Part shown: positions 1-14,473 of the stretch, piece after piece
Layout of the letters: the number at the start of each line of letters is the position of its first letter
Numbering within the stretch: position 1 is the stretch's first letter
Virus record (IMG/VR): IMGVR_UViG_3300008120_010089
Location: 1 to 20,359 of that record
Strand: one strand, 5' to 3'
DNA from: a virus
DNA: 20,359 nucleotides
Program-made: the position numbers and the translations under genes
Notes under the pieces: model-generated
What the model saw: only the letters and a program-made list of their open reading frames with translations
Database searches by the model: none
Told to the model about the DNA's origin: nothing

Positions 1-911
1 TCTTTCATTTTTTCCATGAAAGCTTCAGCTTTGAATGGAGGCAATTGTCCGACATCAATATAAAAAACTCTTCTTTCGGGTGCTCTCGAAAGCCTATACA
101 CCAACATTGCGTCTTCCATGAGTCTTAATTGGTGTGCTGGCCCTCTGGCTGCTTCAACCATTGAAACGCCATAGGGGTAGAAAGTTTTTCTATCATCACC
201 GATTTTGGCATGGACAATTTGTTCTGGAGCAAACCGGATGGCAGTTGCCATCATAATTTCTTGATCTGTCGATTGTACTACAGGCGCTCTTGTAAGGCTT
301 TGGTAATCTGGTCCTTCTTTACTTTGCTGGAATTCGACTATTTTTCCTTTTGTTGTTTCAATTCTGTACATGGAATCAGCTGGCAAACGGACTAATTTCA
401 AAACACCATCTTTGGGGTTGTCTAAATTGACAACAATCTCATAAAACAAATCACCATAAAGCAACAGACTCTTGAAATCTGCCCAAACTCTTCTGTTGAT
501 ATTGACCATGGACCTGTGAAAGAACAAAAATTCAAGTTCATCTCTGACATCATCGTTTTTACAGGAAATAGTAAGCACATTTCCTTTAGAATCTTTCTGA
601 CAGTTATGCACCACCGTACTATTGGTACAAAAGTTTTCGTGTTTTTCAACTGTAAGGTCGTAAACTGGTTGTTCTTTGCCTTCTATTTTACCGATTACTC
701 TTCTTGTGGAAGTAAAGTTGTAGGCCAACCATCTGATTTCACGAATGCTGAATCCTTCAGTCTTCAGTCTATTTTTAAGTGTTCTCCAATCACAATCAAT
801 TAGTTTCATAATTTGACCCATTGAAAGGTCTTGAGCCAAATAACGGCAATATTGATTTACCTTTTCAAGTTTTGGGAAGAACTTTCCTGTTCTCCATTCA
901 TCAACTTTTGG
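1..911 (-). CDS. gp20: Portal protein (T4 gp20-like), C-terminal part preceded by intein C-terminal half; frameshifted and cut by window edge
   Basis: The minus strand is open from 911 down to the left edge, in a frame one base off the upstream portal fragment. The first 101 readable codons (905-603) are the C-terminal part of an intein: a helical segment with helix-turn-helix character (IMKLIDCDWRTLKNRL), then block F (VYDLTVEKHENF) and block G ending VVHN. The C-extein then starts at Cys (600-602) and continues as gp20-like portal: VRDELEFLFFHRSMVNINRR, later RRVFYIDVGQLP, which strongly resembles the T4 portal motif RVFYIDVGNLP. The portal is the dodecameric ring at the capsid vertex through which the terminase pumps DNA. 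A TAG at 912-914 closes this frame upstream. There is no convincing start codon or ribosome-binding site for separate expression (ATG at 821 or 809 are possible but unsupported). The gene continues beyond base 1. Confidence 0.8.
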
Positions 912-1074
912 CTATTTTAGTTTGCCGTGGACTATGAGCCCAGCCAAGCGTGTAGTCATGTTTCTCGAAATCCCAGCAATATACCAAGAATTTTTCATTA
1001 GCATGAGTTTTGGCTAGTTCCTCGATGGGTATTAAACCAAATGGGGTTGCTACTGGAGTGTCACCAGAAAGACA
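603..1074 (-). other. Degenerate intein inside the portal gene (block A and blocks F/G kept, block B lost, +1 frameshift)
   Basis: The element runs from Cys105 of the portal frame (codon 1072-1074) to the terminal Asn (codon 603-605) followed by the Cys+1 extein residue. It is 472 bases, that is 157 codons plus one extra base. Seen directly: block A at the start, about 56 residues in the first frame, a shift at AAAA, then 101 residues carrying a helix-turn-helix-like segment and intact blocks F and G (VVHN/C). The TxxH motif of block B and any LAGLIDADG or HNH catalytic core are missing. Known: the block B His assists the first acyl shift, so splicing should be impaired even if the frame is restored. 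Inference: an internal deletion removed block B and most of the homing endonuclease, leaving its DNA-binding tail. Confidence 0.85.
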
Positions 1075-4397: not shown

Positions 4398-4449
4398 TGG
4401 TTTTTCCAAAAGGTAGACTAACATATATATGAGGGAAAGAGAGGCAAAA

Positions 4450-4908
4450 ATGTTATTAAATCCAGATCATGCTTATTTTGCACAAAAGATGCTTAGTGAT
4501 TTGAGAAATGAAAAAAAACACATGTTGTTTTATTTAACAGCTGCCTCGACAGTAGGGGGAATACACAGGGAAGAATTCAAAGAATACTTTGCAAAAGAAG
4601 CTGCATCTGAAATGGCACATGTAATTGAGTTCCAAAATGCCTTGCTTGGATTAGGTGTTGATCTGACAGAAACAAATGATGCTGTTGAGTTTAATCATTA
4701 TATATTAAGCTATTCTCCTATTGAACTTTTGGATTATGCTATGAAGATGGAAGCTGAAGTAGTTGCTAATTATGCACAGCGTATAAAGGAAGATGTAAAA
4801 TTACTACAAGAGCCAGATCAAACATGGATGGAAAATTTTTATGAGGATCAGTTGGTAAAAAGTAGGGAAGATGTTGATAATTTGAGAATGTTGTTAAGAA
4901 CTGTCTAA
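4450..4908 (+). CDS. Ferritin/bacterioferritin-like four-helix protein with altered diiron site
   Basis: The 152-aa product reads as a four-helix ferritin-like fold. Aligned by eye to bacterioferritin: E21 and Y28 in helix A (NEKKHMLFYL), E54xxH57 in helix B (SEMAHVIEF), E101 in helix C (MEAEVVANY). In helix D the expected ExxH is replaced by S138..D141 (VKSREDVDNL), so one metal site appears incomplete. Family role: iron storage or oxidation, or protection from peroxide; function here is uncertain because of the changed ligands. The start at 4450 is set by AGAGAGG five bases upstream; an in-frame ATG at 4429 lacks a ribosome-binding site. It is divergent from the terminase with only about 50 bases between the two starts. 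A ferritin-like protein next to packaging genes is unusual. Confidence 0.7.
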   Translation: MLLNPDHAYFAQKMLSDLRNEKKHMLFYLTAASTVGGIHREEFKEYFAKEAASEMAHVIEFQNALLGLGVDLTETNDAVEFNHYILSYSPIELLDYAMKMEAEVVANYAQRIKEDVKLLQEPDQTWMENFYEDQLVKSREDVDNLRMLLRTV

Positions 4909-4960: not shown

Positions 4961-6862
4961 ATGTCATTTTTTCAAAATGTTTTTGATTTCGAGTTCAGGC
5001 CAACACTTTTAGGGGCTGACAGACAATACCAAATGTCTTGGAAGCTGCCAGCAAATACTAATCGCAGCGATTACATGTTGAGTGGAAATGCCGGTCCTTT
5101 TAACCTGTCTAACGGCGAAATACTTACAATAAATTATGCATATGATGTTAATTTTGTGAATTATTCATCTATGGATATTGATATATCTGGAACAACTCCA
5201 GAAGCAACTACTGCTCAAGAAATTGTTAGTACGCTAAACTCAGATGCGACATTTGCGAGTATGTTCACAGCTGTTGTATATCCAAGTACAACAAATCCCC
5301 AGAGTCCTAATAAGATTTTGATCAAAGGATTGAATAGTCGTGGTATATTCAGAGCTTATATTTCCAACAGCGGTGCTGAAAAAATTCTTCAGTTCAATAA
5401 GAAGGCTCCAATTCGTGAACTTCCAAGTTATTTTGCAAGATACACAATTGCAGAAAGATTCAACTATCCCACACTCGGCCCAGATCGTGTAATCGAACTT
5501 GATCCAGCATGCCCCTACGAAGCAGGCCTAATTTCAGCAGCTGGATATGACCCCGCTGCTCCCAAGGAAGACTGGGAGTTGCTACAAGGACAAAACGAGG
5601 CATACTGGACCTATAATAGGACATACGCTGATAGCGTATTAGTTTCTGAAATTAAATATCAATCAGGAGCCAGACCCGGAGACTTGGCAAAGAAGATATT
5701 TTATACCTACTCCGGTAGTGACCTAATTGGTCAACAAGATGTTCCTTATGTTTTACAAGAGGCCGATATACTAACACCTCCAAACGATCCAACTTATTTG
5801 TGGGTAGCAGGCTATAATGACAATGGTCGCCTTGGAACAAATGATACTATTAATTATTCATCACCAGTACAAACTGTTGCAGGTGGCAGCAATTGGAAAA
5901 TGGTATCTGGGGGATATGAGCATAGTGCTGGCGTGAAGTTTGACGGAACGCTTTGGTGCTGGGGAAGAAATGCGGATGGTCAACTTGGAACAAACGATAC
6001 AACAGATGTATCATCTCCAGTTCAAACAATTGCCAATACAGAAAACTGGAAATCTGTGGCTTGTGGTGGGTTCCATACTGTTGCAATCAAAGAAGACGGC
6101 ACTCTCTGGTCGTGGGGGAACAATTACAATGGGCAACTTGGTACGAATGATACAAATTATTATTCGTCTCCAGTTCAAGAAATAACAAATGGCACAACTT
6201 GGAAATCGGTAACTTGTGGTTACGCATTTACAGCAGCTATTAAGAATGACGGCACTCTCTGGATGTGGGGATTCAACTATGCCGGTCAGCTTGGAGATGA
6301 TTCTACTGATAGAAGAAGTTCTCCGGTTCAAACAATTGCTGGTGGTAATAATTGGTTCCAAGTAGCTTGTGGATATTCCTATACGGCTGCTGTAAAGACA
6401 GATGGCACACTTCATGTATGGGGAAGTAATTATGATGGTCAGCTAGGCACAAACGATACGGATGGGTATTCATCGCCAGTTCAAACTGTGACAGGTGGAA
6501 ATAATTGGAAAGCTGTAGCATGTGGAAATAGTCATACACTTGCTCTCGATTGTGATGGAAACATTTGGTCTTTTGGAAGCAATAGTTATGGAGAGCTAGG
6601 TGATTCTACTACAAATGACAAGTCATCTCCTGTACAAATTGAAACTGCAAGTTCTGAATGGGCACAAGTATTTGCAGGCGGTGAAGGATCAGGATCAATA
6701 AGAGACGATAAGACTTTGTGGGTTTGGGGCTTCAATCCAAGTGGTGAGCTTGGCACAGGAAACACTAACTTTTATTCATCTCCAGTCCAAACAGTTATGA
6801 ATGGAAATAACTGGAAATCAGGAGCATTTGGTACTTTCCACGCATTATTGCTGAAAAATTAA
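4961..6862 (+). CDS. Large virion-type protein with N-terminal beta domain and C-terminal seven-bladed RCC1 propeller
   Basis: The 633-aa product has two parts. Residues 1-279 form a beta-rich, Asn/Tyr/Pro-rich region without a family I can name (starts MSFFQNVFDFEFRPTLLGAD). Residues 280-633 are seven consecutive 51-residue repeats of the pattern LWxWGxNxxGQLGTNDTxxxSSPVQT...NWKxVxCGxxHTxAxKxDGT, which is the RCC1/BLIP-II signature and should close into a seven-bladed beta-propeller. In phages such propellers are usually displayed on tail fibres, baseplates or capsids and bind host surface or partner proteins; that role is inferred. The start has GAGG at good spacing and a late-promoter-like motif 26 bases upstream. 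There is no signal peptide. Its stop overlaps the convergent gene by four bases. Blades 6 and 7 are the most diverged. Confidence 0.85.
   Translation: MSFFQNVFDFEFRPTLLGADRQYQMSWKLPANTNRSDYMLSGNAGPFNLSNGEILTINYAYDVNFVNYSSMDIDISGTTPEATTAQEIVSTLNSDATFASMFTAVVYPSTTNPQSPNKILIKGLNSRGIFRAYISNSGAEKILQFNKKAPIRELPSYFARYTIAERFNYPTLGPDRVIELDPACPYEAGLISAAGYDPAAPKEDWELLQGQNEAYWTYNRTYADSVLVSEIKYQSGARPGDLAKKIFYTYSGSDLIGQQDVPYVLQEADILTPPNDPTYLWVAGYNDNGRLGTNDTINYSSPVQTVAGGSNWKMVSGGYEHSAGVKFDGTLWCWGRNADGQLGTNDTTDVSSPVQTIANTENWKSVACGGFHTVAIKEDGTLWSWGNNYNGQLGTNDTNYYSSPVQEITNGTTWKSVTCGYAFTAAIKNDGTLWMWGFNYAGQLGDDSTDRRSSPVQTIAGGNNWFQVACGYSYTAAVKTDGTLHVWGSNYDGQLGTNDTDGYSSPVQTVTGGNNWKAVACGNSHTLALDCDGNIWSFGSNSYGELGDSTTNDKSSPVQIETASSEWAQVFAGGEGSGSIRDDKTLWVWGFNPSGELGTGNTNFYSSPVQTVMNGNNWKSGAFGTFHALLLKN
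5798..6859 (+). repeat. Seven tandem RCC1 repeats of 153 bases (51 residues)
   Basis: Seven in-frame units start with LW, LH or IW and are uniformly 51 residues, the last three residues shorter. Strongly shared cores are GQLGTNDT, SSPVQT, NWK and DGTLW. Units 2-5 are closest to each other at the protein level, suggesting the most recent duplications are internal. The array encodes a single propeller domain. Confidence 0.9.
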
Positions 6863-7380: not shown

Positions 7381-7402
7381 ATTATAGAATATGGGGGTAA
7401 TC

Positions 7403-9055
7403 ATGGATTTTTTCAAAAAAATAGCTCTTTGCGGTAAAAATATTTTCACGATGATTTTTTATAGGAAACCGACTAGTCCGACAAAAAGATTTCCACCAAA
7501 ACCAAAACCACCAATTGATAAAAAGAAAGGCGTTATGAAATACTATTTAAACGACCCTGCTTATCCAAATTTAATTGGTGAAGTTACTGATCCTAAACCT
7601 ATGGGTTTGTCTATCAATGTACCAAACCTACAGCCGGGAAACTTTGATTTTAATAGTCCTCAAGGCATAGCAAATAATACCATGGCGCTTCTTTGTCATG
7701 GCATTAATATGTTTAACCAGAAATTTAATTTAAACAAATGGGCTGTGGTAAGCACTTTACAAGTAAATACGATGGCTGGCTTTGATGCAAATGCATACTA
7801 CGACAGAAGCAGCCTTAAATTTTTTTACTTTAATGGAAAGAATAATACTCAAGTATACACAGCTTTAAGCTCAGACATCGTCAGCCATGAATTAGGGCAT
7901 GCGCTTCTAGATGCTTTGAGACCCGATTTCTTCAGCGCAGCTGCTATGGAAGTATGGGCATTTCATGAATCTTTTGGTGATGTGAATTCAATTTTGTGTG
8001 CTCTGTATCATGATGAACTTGTAAATTATGTTCTTAATGAAACGAACTTTGATCTAAGAAAATCTAATTTGGTTTCCAAAGTTGCAGAGCAGTTTGGGGT
8101 TAATTTAGGTAAATCATCATCGCTTAGAGAGGCAGCAAACAATTACAAGTATGTGAATCCAGCTAGTCTGCCAACAAAGTCCAACGATCCAAATGCCATA
8201 GTGCGAGAGCCACATAGTTTTTCGAAAATTATGACTGGAACTGTTTACGAAGTTCTTTGCAGAGTTTATGAGAAGTATGGAAAAAACAAAGATGCATTAC
8301 TAAAGGCTAGGGATTATGTACGAGATACATTTTACAAAGCTTGCACAATGGCACCTTCGACAACCAACTTCTATGAAGCATTTGGTCAGGCTTGGATGAA
8401 ACAAGATGAGAGTATGGGAGGTCAAAACAAAGACATCATCAACTCTGTATTTTCTGATCGTGGTATATTTAAGATACGAATGATGGCTGTTCAAGATTCA
8501 CAAGCCTCTGAAAAAGAAAAAATTGAGTCTGTAAAAACACCCAACATGCATCTTCAAAAATGCAGATTGGATTGTTGTGTATCGGACTTGTTCAAAGACG
8601 AAATTGGAGGGTTGTCTACAAACGAATATATTTCTGATATGAAAGTTCAACTTGCAGTTGACAACTTATATCTTAAAGATATGGACGATGATGACATCGG
8701 ATGGCAAAATGTTTCAGATACAGTAGAGCAAGCAAAAGTAGCTGCTAAGAATTTGGTGGAATATATTTTAGAAAATAAGCTTATAGGTCAAGATGATTCA
8801 GATGTTTGGTTCAAAGATAATGATGGCTATTTGAAAAGAAGGCTTTTCCAATGCGATTGCTATCGTCCAAATTATTTGTTTCCCGGAAATCCAGAATACA
8901 ATAAACCATATAAACCTAAAAACAATTCTGGTTGTTGCACCTATGGTAGTTGCGCCAACTTAACTCCGAATCCTGCACCATCAATACAGCAAAGTTGTAA
9001 TATAAGATATGGCTCTTCATGTAAATCTGTTTCGTTTAACGGAAAAAGTTGTTGA
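7403..9055 (+). CDS. Gluzincin-type zinc metallopeptidase (thermolysin-like site) with Cys-rich C-terminal tail
   Basis: The 550-aa product carries H162-E163-L-G-H166 (DIVSHELGHALLD), then HESFGD with E189 as the likely third zinc ligand and D193 after it, recalling the thermolysin ExxxD helix. A later PHSFSKIMTGTVY (H271) fits the thermolysin His231 region, and the preceding ANAYYDRSSLKFFYF resembles the M4/M36 substrate-side strands. So it should hydrolyse peptide bonds with zinc. There is no signal peptide; the N-terminus is basic and Pro-rich (PPKPKPPIDKKK). The last 70 or so residues hold eight cysteines (QCDCYRP, GCCTYGSC and others), with three more in QKCRLDCCVSDL. The start at 7403 has GGGGG five bases upstream. 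Substrate is unknown; virion maturation, host attack or wall/surface digestion are possible. Confidence 0.75.
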   Translation: MDFFKKIALCGKNIFTMIFYRKPTSPTKRFPPKPKPPIDKKKGVMKYYLNDPAYPNLIGEVTDPKPMGLSINVPNLQPGNFDFNSPQGIANNTMALLCHGINMFNQKFNLNKWAVVSTLQVNTMAGFDANAYYDRSSLKFFYFNGKNNTQVYTALSSDIVSHELGHALLDALRPDFFSAAAMEVWAFHESFGDVNSILCALYHDELVNYVLNETNFDLRKSNLVSKVAEQFGVNLGKSSSLREAANNYKYVNPASLPTKSNDPNAIVREPHSFSKIMTGTVYEVLCRVYEKYGKNKDALLKARDYVRDTFYKACTMAPSTTNFYEAFGQAWMKQDESMGGQNKDIINSVFSDRGIFKIRMMAVQDSQASEKEKIESVKTPNMHLQKCRLDCCVSDLFKDEIGGLSTNEYISDMKVQLAVDNLYLKDMDDDDIGWQNVSDTVEQAKVAAKNLVEYILENKLIGQDDSDVWFKDNDGYLKRRLFQCDCYRPNYLFPGNPEYNKPYKPKNNSGCCTYGSCANLTPNPAPSIQQSCNIRYGSSCKSVSFNGKSC

Positions 9056-9106: not shown

Positions 9107-9192
9107 AAAACTATATTGCTATTGATCCGTCTGGGAAATAGCATAAAATTTTACACATGATTTTCATGCCGAGTTTGCGTGTAGGAGAAAAA

Positions 9193-9570
9193 ATGATCAC
9201 AAGCTTACAACTAATCGATTGCCTTTTTGAAGAATTTTTCATAAGTTCAATTTCTTCAAATAACAATGTTTATGAATTTCTAGAAAATAGTATTTATGAT
9301 GATGAAGACGAAGACGAAGACGAAGATGATGATGATGATTGGGATGACGATGAGGACGATGAAGAAGAAGATGACGATGACGATTGGGACGATGATGAAG
9401 ACGATGATGACGATGATGATTGGGATGACGATGAGGACGATGAAGAAGAAGATGACGATGAGGACATGGAGGAAGAAGAGTGGGATGATGACGATGATGA
9501 TTGGGATGAAGACGAAGAGGATGAAGATGATTGGGACGATGACGATGATGAAGACGAGGACAATTATTGA
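9193..9570 (+). CDS. Hyperacidic Asp/Glu protein punctuated by tryptophans
   Basis: The 125-aa product starts with about 35 ordinary residues (MITSLQLIDCLFEEFFISSI...), then becomes almost purely Asp and Glu to its end, interrupted by six Trp (spacings 15, 12, 20, 7 and 10 residues), one Met and a final Asn-Tyr. A 27-residue block (WDDDEDDEEEDDDDD plus WDDDEDDDDDDD) is partly duplicated, matching an exact 50-base DNA repeat. The start at 9193 is set by AGGAG five bases upstream, and an exact TATAAATA lies further upstream, so it is probably a real, late-expressed protein rather than a chance frame. Possible roles are DNA mimicry, binding of a basic protein or DNA-binding partner, or cation binding; none is shown. 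The mirror frame encoding poly-Ser on the other strand is a shadow. Confidence 0.8.
   Translation: MITSLQLIDCLFEEFFISSISSNNNVYEFLENSIYDDEDEDEDEDDDDDWDDDEDDEEEDDDDDWDDDEDDDDDDDWDDDEDDEEEDDDEDMEEEEWDDDDDDWDEDEEDEDDWDDDDDEDEDNY
9331..9461 (+). repeat. Direct repeat: 50-base exact copies at 9331-9380 and 9412-9461 in the acidic gene
   Basis: The two copies are identical over 50 bases and offset by 81 bases (27 codons), so the duplication keeps the frame. They encode the same DDDWDDDEDDEEED stretch. Identical synonymous codon choice between copies points to recent duplication by slippage or recombination, making length variation likely. Confidence 0.9.
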
Positions 9571-13462: not shown

Positions 13463-14473
13463 TCAACCTGCTGCTTCAGCTGCGATTAGACAGCCTTTTG
13501 CAACTGAGTAGAGTGGTTCAGCGGGACGAATCACTTCTCCTACGGGGATGCTCAAATTTGCTTGCTTCAATGTTTGAGAGAATATATCTGTAAATCCTTT
13601 GGCCATAGAAGTGCCACCGGCAACTACGAAGTCTACAGGATTTTCAGTTTTTACAGCTTGTTTTGCAGAGGCAAGGCCTTCACGAATTCCATGGACTGTC
13701 TTCTCAATCATCAGGCGATACTGAGTAATAATCGCTCTTTCAACTAATGTTGTTGGTTCTGCTGATAAATCAACTTTAGCTTTCTCCTTATTGATAAAGG
13801 TTGGGCTTTCACCTGTAGCCTTGGCAGCTTGCTTATCGATCCAGTCTCCACTATTGACAATTGCAAAAGAAAAGATTGGATTGCCGTACATGGCAAAACA
13901 AACATTTACCATGCCTGCGCCACATGATACTCCAACGCCCGTGAATGCTTTCTTCTGTAGTTCAGCGTAGACGATTGCTAAGGCTTCGTTAATTGGTTTA
14001 GGGTCCACTTTGTACCCTTCATCAGATACATAGCTTTTGAAAATTGATTCCAGCACTCTTGAGTGATAATCAGCATCGGTTTCTTGATTGATTGCGTTGG
14101 CTGGGACGCTGTAATAAAGCTTGGTGCCGTCTTGTTCGACTGGATCAATTAGGCTGTGCGCCATAATGTTCATAATTTGGAAAGCGTCTCTCTCTTTAGG
14201 ATTGACGCAACCGTCTTTCATAGGCCTTTTCAACTCTAGTGTGGGCAGAGTATAGGCCATATTTACAGCAGCTTCGCCCAAAGCATAAGCTACATTTTCT
14301 CTTTCGATTAGAGGCACTCCAGCTTGCTTCATCATGTTGAAAACAAATCTGTTTTCCAATGGTAATTCAAGAAAAGCATTTATTTCTCTTTTGTATAGAA
14401 AATCTCCTTTTTCATTCCTTCTGCAAGCGATAGCATTGTAAGTGCCAGCGTCATAGCCTATGCATTTCTTCAT
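13463..14473 (-). CDS. Actin-like ATPase (ParM/MreB/Alp superfamily)
   Basis: The 336-aa product has the actin-fold motifs in order: phosphate 1 IGYDAGTYNA (D8), connect 1 SVPAN (122-126), phosphate 2 GVSCGAGMVNV (181-191), SGDWIDKQAA (208-217), adenosine motif VVAGGTSMAKGF (283-294) and connect 2 VAKGCLIAAE (324-333). Members bind ATP and many polymerise into filaments that segregate DNA or organise cells. The usual Asp of phosphate 2 (DxGGGT) is replaced by Ser-Cys here, which may slow hydrolysis. The start is supported by AAGGTG four bases upstream. A 76-aa gene lies directly upstream (15 bases between) and the tandem DUF5659-like gene downstream. Phage DNA positioning, plasmid-like partition or host control are possible roles. 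Confidence 0.8.
   Translation of the reverse strand: MKKCIGYDAGTYNAIACRRNEKGDFLYKREINAFLELPLENRFVFNMMKQAGVPLIERENVAYALGEAAVNMAYTLPTLELKRPMKDGCVNPKERDAFQIMNIMAHSLIDPVEQDGTKLYYSVPANAINQETDADYHSRVLESIFKSYVSDEGYKVDPKPINEALAIVYAELQKKAFTGVGVSCGAGMVNVCFAMYGNPIFSFAIVNSGDWIDKQAAKATGESPTFINKEKAKVDLSAEPTTLVERAIITQYRLMIEKTVHGIREGLASAKQAVKTENPVDFVVAGGTSMAKGFTDIFSQTLKQANLSIPVGEVIRPAEPLYSVAKGCLIAAEAAG

Follow-up and report, generated by a model that had tools for sequence, protein, structure and literature searches.

The window analysed here, a 20,359-nucleotide stretch of viral DNA (IMG/VR record IMGVR_UViG_3300008120_010089, positions 1 to 20,359), carries in its T4-like portal gene both ends of an intein whose reading frame is interrupted. 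The explanation that best accounts for the results as a whole is that the phage probably has a complete 232-aa intein, of which 224 bp were lost from the contig, most likely by a local error. Most probably, the broken copy in the window does not reflect the real biology of the phage. Judged by its motifs, the intact element looks like a splicing-competent mini-intein of the class 1 type, and it belongs to an apparently undescribed family at one portal site of uncultured large phages.

Both flanks of the insertion matched the T4-like portal family (Portal_T4, PF07230), with E=3e-75 on an intact relative and E=2e-33 on the C-terminal part in the window, and the portal also matched phrog_213 (E=4e-71). 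The profile Intein_splicing (PF14890) was found with E=2e-14 on the intact copy and E=2e-6 on the C-terminal part in the window, and the identification as an intein is therefore not due to chance. The original prediction of an intein within an essential packaging gene was thus correct. The residues preceding the intein in the N-extein of the window were the same in 89 loci. In the window, the Cys codon of CLSGDTPV starts at position 1074 of the minus strand and the Asn of VVHN ends at 603, with the C-terminal His-Asn kept (positions 603-608), and the intein stretch comprises 472 nt, i.e., 157 codons plus one base. The reading frames of its N- and C-terminal parts differ and meet between the two stop codons listed in Table 1, as had been described earlier with the same coordinates. 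The lack of block B, also reported at that time, was borne out by comparison: none was present in the window copy, whereas it was found in 50/50 aligned relatives and in all of the 80 relatives selected by their extein sequences.

Table 1. Features of the interrupted portal locus in the window and of the neighbouring gap in contig L002
Feature	Position	Strand	Basis or remark
Portal (gp20-like) N-extein, 104 residues	1075..1386	-	ATG start at 1386; ends ...NVFADEA; translation
Intein N-terminal piece, block A CLSGDTPV, 169 nt = 56 codons + 1 base	906..1074	-	
Intein C-terminal piece, 101 codons: helical central domain, blocks F and G (VYDLTVEKHENF, VVHN)	603..905	-	
Portal C-extein, starts with C+1 (CQKDSKG), continues past the contig end	1..602	-	Portal_T4 match; tblastn matches to T4-like portals
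Deletion junction, 224 bp of L002 and L003 absent	905..906	.	Alignment to L002 and L003
TGA ending the N-terminal frame after the junction	901..903	-	
TAG ending the C-terminal frame before the junction	912..914	-	
Segment of the 104-aa gene (1444-1758), 125 bp absent from L002	1564..1688	-	Alignment; private to L002

IMG/VR was scanned with 107 residues around the intein end, and two contigs, L003 (3300032116_021034) and L002 (3300008259_000280), encoded them at 100% identity. Over 3,797 aligned bases (~3.8 kb) a single substitution separated L003 from the window, and L002 was 99.7-100% identical to it over 18.8 kb, with about 50 substitutions. Beyond the intein gap, the only further indel in these alignments was a gap of L002's own. 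Both contigs contain 224 extra bases, identical in the two, between window positions 906 and 905. Once these are restored, the intein amounts to 169 + 224 + 303 = 696 nt, or 232 codons, and the portal frame together with the 232-aa intein is open in both L002 and L003. Residues 1-56 of the intact intein are reproduced exactly by the N-terminal piece in the window and residues 132-232 by the C-terminal piece, in which PF14890 was matched; the 224-bp segment codes for residues about 57-131, including block B (TTPDHRVLL). The absence of the 224 bases (3x74+2) at 905/906 thus accounts at once for the missing block B and for the frameshift. The original prediction had called for a +1 shift; the frame break itself is present, but it is caused by 224 missing bases and not by an extra one. 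It had also proposed that an assembly artefact would be recognised either by a full intein with block B and an endonuclease, or by a one-base consensus error plus a missed segment. The full intein with block B and the missed segment were both found, no endonuclease accompanied them, and a separate one-base error is not needed.

Based on these alignments, we infer a technical rather than a biological origin of the lesion, probably a local assembly or library error which joined two points of one locus and produced a false frameshift. The reason for this reading is that two private, frame-breaking gaps occur in contigs that are otherwise nearly free of indels, and that each is contradicted by other contigs. 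The second gap, of 125 bp, is that of L002, and it breaks the frame of a 104-aa gene sitting between the portal and terminase genes, just upstream of the portal; this gene is open in the window and in L003 and has homologues in many relatives. The two gaps lie within 0.8 kb of each other in one contig trio, and the one in L002 also showed no microhomology. Moreover, the broken intein was unique among those examined. Local assembly errors in metagenome assemblies are documented and yield incorrect protein-coding gene sequences (PMC7111523). However, such gaps are uncommon in the collection: a control on about 33 further pairs of near-identical contigs, drawn from the retrieved loci, showed no comparable private deletion, and a deletion-prone region or defective genomes could therefore also be considered. 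The presence of two gaps in one trio hints at a local cause, either technical or biological. A further point against the error reading is that neither a hairpin nor a direct repeat at the breakpoints accounts for the gap.

The corresponding biological reading would be a real and recent deletion of 224 bp in part of the phage population, leaving a defective genome without a portal that is either not self-sustaining or rescued by intact co-infecting genomes. The consensus of the contig does carry the deletion, the near-identical L002 lacks another segment nearby, as might be seen in a region prone to deletions, and the breakpoints at 905/906, at which neither microhomology nor direct repeats were found, are compatible with end-joining-like events. 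However, a lesion that breaks the frame of an essential structural gene would not be expected to dominate; the intein halves and flanks in the window showed no decay relative to the intact copies, and the exact junction sequence had no match in the other contigs of the IMG/VR scan, from which the window's own record was left out. No copy of the missing segment was present elsewhere in the window, and a hairpin was not indicated as the cause of a deletion, the segment with its flanks folding no better than shuffled sequences (z = 0.18). A real deletion is regarded as unlikely.

Two further explanations raised by the original prediction did not survive the comparison. According to the first, the allele would be functional through recoding, by a +1 shift at AAAA/AGT TGA, or through a portal made in two pieces. 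The two frames do meet within a few bases, and the stop codon in the shift window might superficially resemble known recoding sites. However, even the corrected frame would lack the 75 intein residues 57-131, and with them block B, whose T71, D73 and H74 are invariant, as well as core strands of the Hint fold. No N-terminal splicing chemistry is to be expected of such a product, and repair of the frame would therefore not restore splicing. Moreover, the relatives need no recoding, the frame was broken in 0/80 of the extein-selected relatives, and the arrangement was found in no other scanned contig. Programmed recoding was accordingly rejected as extremely improbable. According to the second explanation, the contig joins two alleles, e.g., an intein-bearing and an empty one or two types of intein, which would likewise produce a sudden frame break. 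The parts to the left and right of the junction, however, matched the same two contigs at 99.8-100% (for L002, 905/905 and 657/658 bases on the two sides), they are co-linear pieces of one 232-aa intein, and an empty site was not found in the clade. A chimaera of two alleles is not needed when both sides match the same strain, and it was dismissed with hardly any probability left to it. A local error within one locus thus remains the preferred reading.

The intact intein has the class 1 layout, i.e., C1, a TxxH block B, and H-N followed by C+1. It is an in-frame insertion with portal extein homology on both sides in L002, L003 and 80/80 extein-selected loci. C1 is invariant and a Cys occupies position +1 in all parsed loci of the family, and block B (T71-x-D73-H74) and block G (H231 N232) are invariant in the relatives. 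The AlphaFold2 model of the intact intein (mean pLDDT 96) adopted the Hint fold, the nearest solved structures being mini-inteins such as Npu DnaB and DnaE (PDB), and PF14890 was matched in 50/50 members scanned. Ordinary protein splicing is the expected mechanism, since C1, block B, H-N and C+1 are all present. In the living phage, translation of the portal precursor would proceed in a single frame, and self-excision of the intein would yield the mature portal; that splicing occurs is what we infer from these motifs.

A conserved insert of about 95 residues separates blocks B and F in the family; in the model it is made up of a beta hairpin, one helix and a bundle of helices resembling an HTH. 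Neither a LAGLIDADG nor an HNH domain appeared among the Pfam matches listed for the 50 members, which contained nothing closer than weak HTH matches. The known mini-inteins (Npu DnaB and DnaE, Ssp DnaB, and the splicing domain of Mtu RecA) likewise have the Hint fold, C1, a TxxH block B, H-N and C+1, but lack these roughly 95 extra residues, which are present family-wide in the portal intein. The HNH-containing intein of Bacillus phage SP-15 (SP15_022) showed 36% identity over the N-terminal splicing half, with blocks A and B; it has an HNH-like motif (MHHRDFNKRNNDPRNL, recognised by eye) between its halves, a motif missing from the much shorter inteins of the portal family. The insert may be a remnant of an endonuclease, possibly an HNH one in view of the motif seen by eye in SP-15, although it did not itself align to SP-15, the profile alignment spanning residues 1-99 of the portal intein only. 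Inteins inside a phage portal gene are known from mycobacteriophages (PORT, cluster C1; PMC5050341). Those belong to other phages, while here a portal of the T4 gp20 type, from large phages that are uncultured, is the host protein, a distinction drawn from phage and gene type. A literature search, which is not proof of absence, found the mycobacteriophage portal inteins and no description of the family in uncultured large phages.

A second, LAGLIDADG-type intein occurs in the same gene of related phages (e.g., L037, L062 and L069), but it differs from the present family in its site (YRL|CLVG), its length (395-418 aa) and its weak homing endonuclease matches. It was seen in the C-extein after YRL in L037, L061, L062, L069 and L072, and L009 was similar; in L037 the weak matches were to homing endonuclease/LAGLIDADG profiles. 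L098 has a longer C-extein.

The family was recovered by an intein-profile search from 80 IMG/VR contigs, and the 595-kb uncultured phage LR756511 carries it as well. The intein is always 228-235 aa long and is inserted between ...(F/Y)(A/S)DE(A/S/T) and CQ(K/R). As a selection independent of the intein, IMG/VR was also queried with the joined extein junction, and the best 80 contigs were taken, some of which are near-duplicates, so that the independent phages are fewer than 80. In each of these contigs the match to the query either stopped or began at the insertion point, and therefore 80/80 sites were occupied and none was empty. All of them encoded the intein at full length, without stop codons and with block B. 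In a separate scan with the C-extein only, 10/10 portals at >=58% identity carried the intein. The inspected portals below about 37% identity, which are more distant T4-like ones, had an empty site, many with ...IYADD(S/C/A)|(T/S)Q.... Intein and extein distances were correlated (Mantel r = 0.79; best of 999 permutations 0.14), and the two trees shared 21 strongly supported splits, with seven strongly supported intein clades in conflict; inheritance has therefore been mostly, perhaps not purely, vertical. Members of the family differ at about half of their residues despite the nearly constant length. Among GTDB genomes one further member, L180, was found in a contig of a Neisseriaceae MAG, which is possibly a binned phage or a hint at the host.

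Several other genes of the window were also noted. A ferritin-like protein (4429-4908, plus strand; PF00210, E=2e-7) is encoded next to the large terminase gene, in divergent orientation. It is followed by a 633-aa protein (4961-6862, plus strand) in which seven or more RCC1 repeats were recognised (PF00415, E=1e-70), which is unusual for a gene of the phage virion region, and by a 554-aa protein (7391-9055, plus strand) with weak matches to thermolysin/fungalysin metallopeptidases (M4/M36). A possible 137-aa ORF (9157-9570, plus strand) lies over a repetitive stretch and is made up nearly entirely of Asp and Glu with regularly spaced Trp (DDDWDDDEDDEEEDDD repeats). An actin-like protein (13463-14473, minus strand; Volactin, PF25216, E=4e-64) is also encoded in this phage.

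The results remove the apparent paradox of a lethal allele of an essential gene standing as the consensus, and they are a warning that frameshifts seen in single contigs of metagenomic phages need comparison with near-identical contigs. Of wider interest is that an intein without a recognisable endonuclease occupies one portal site in a broad group of large phages, with every examined contig occupied. For inteins that do not home, the usual expectation is loss or decay with time, or else survival only because precise removal is difficult. It could be speculated, though we consider it rather improbable, that this endonuclease-free intein was retained while the group diversified because splicing has become useful, e.g., by timing portal assembly or making it conditional, the HTH-like insert acting as a sensor or regulator. 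The portal intein family is a good set in which to separate neutral persistence from such a selected role.
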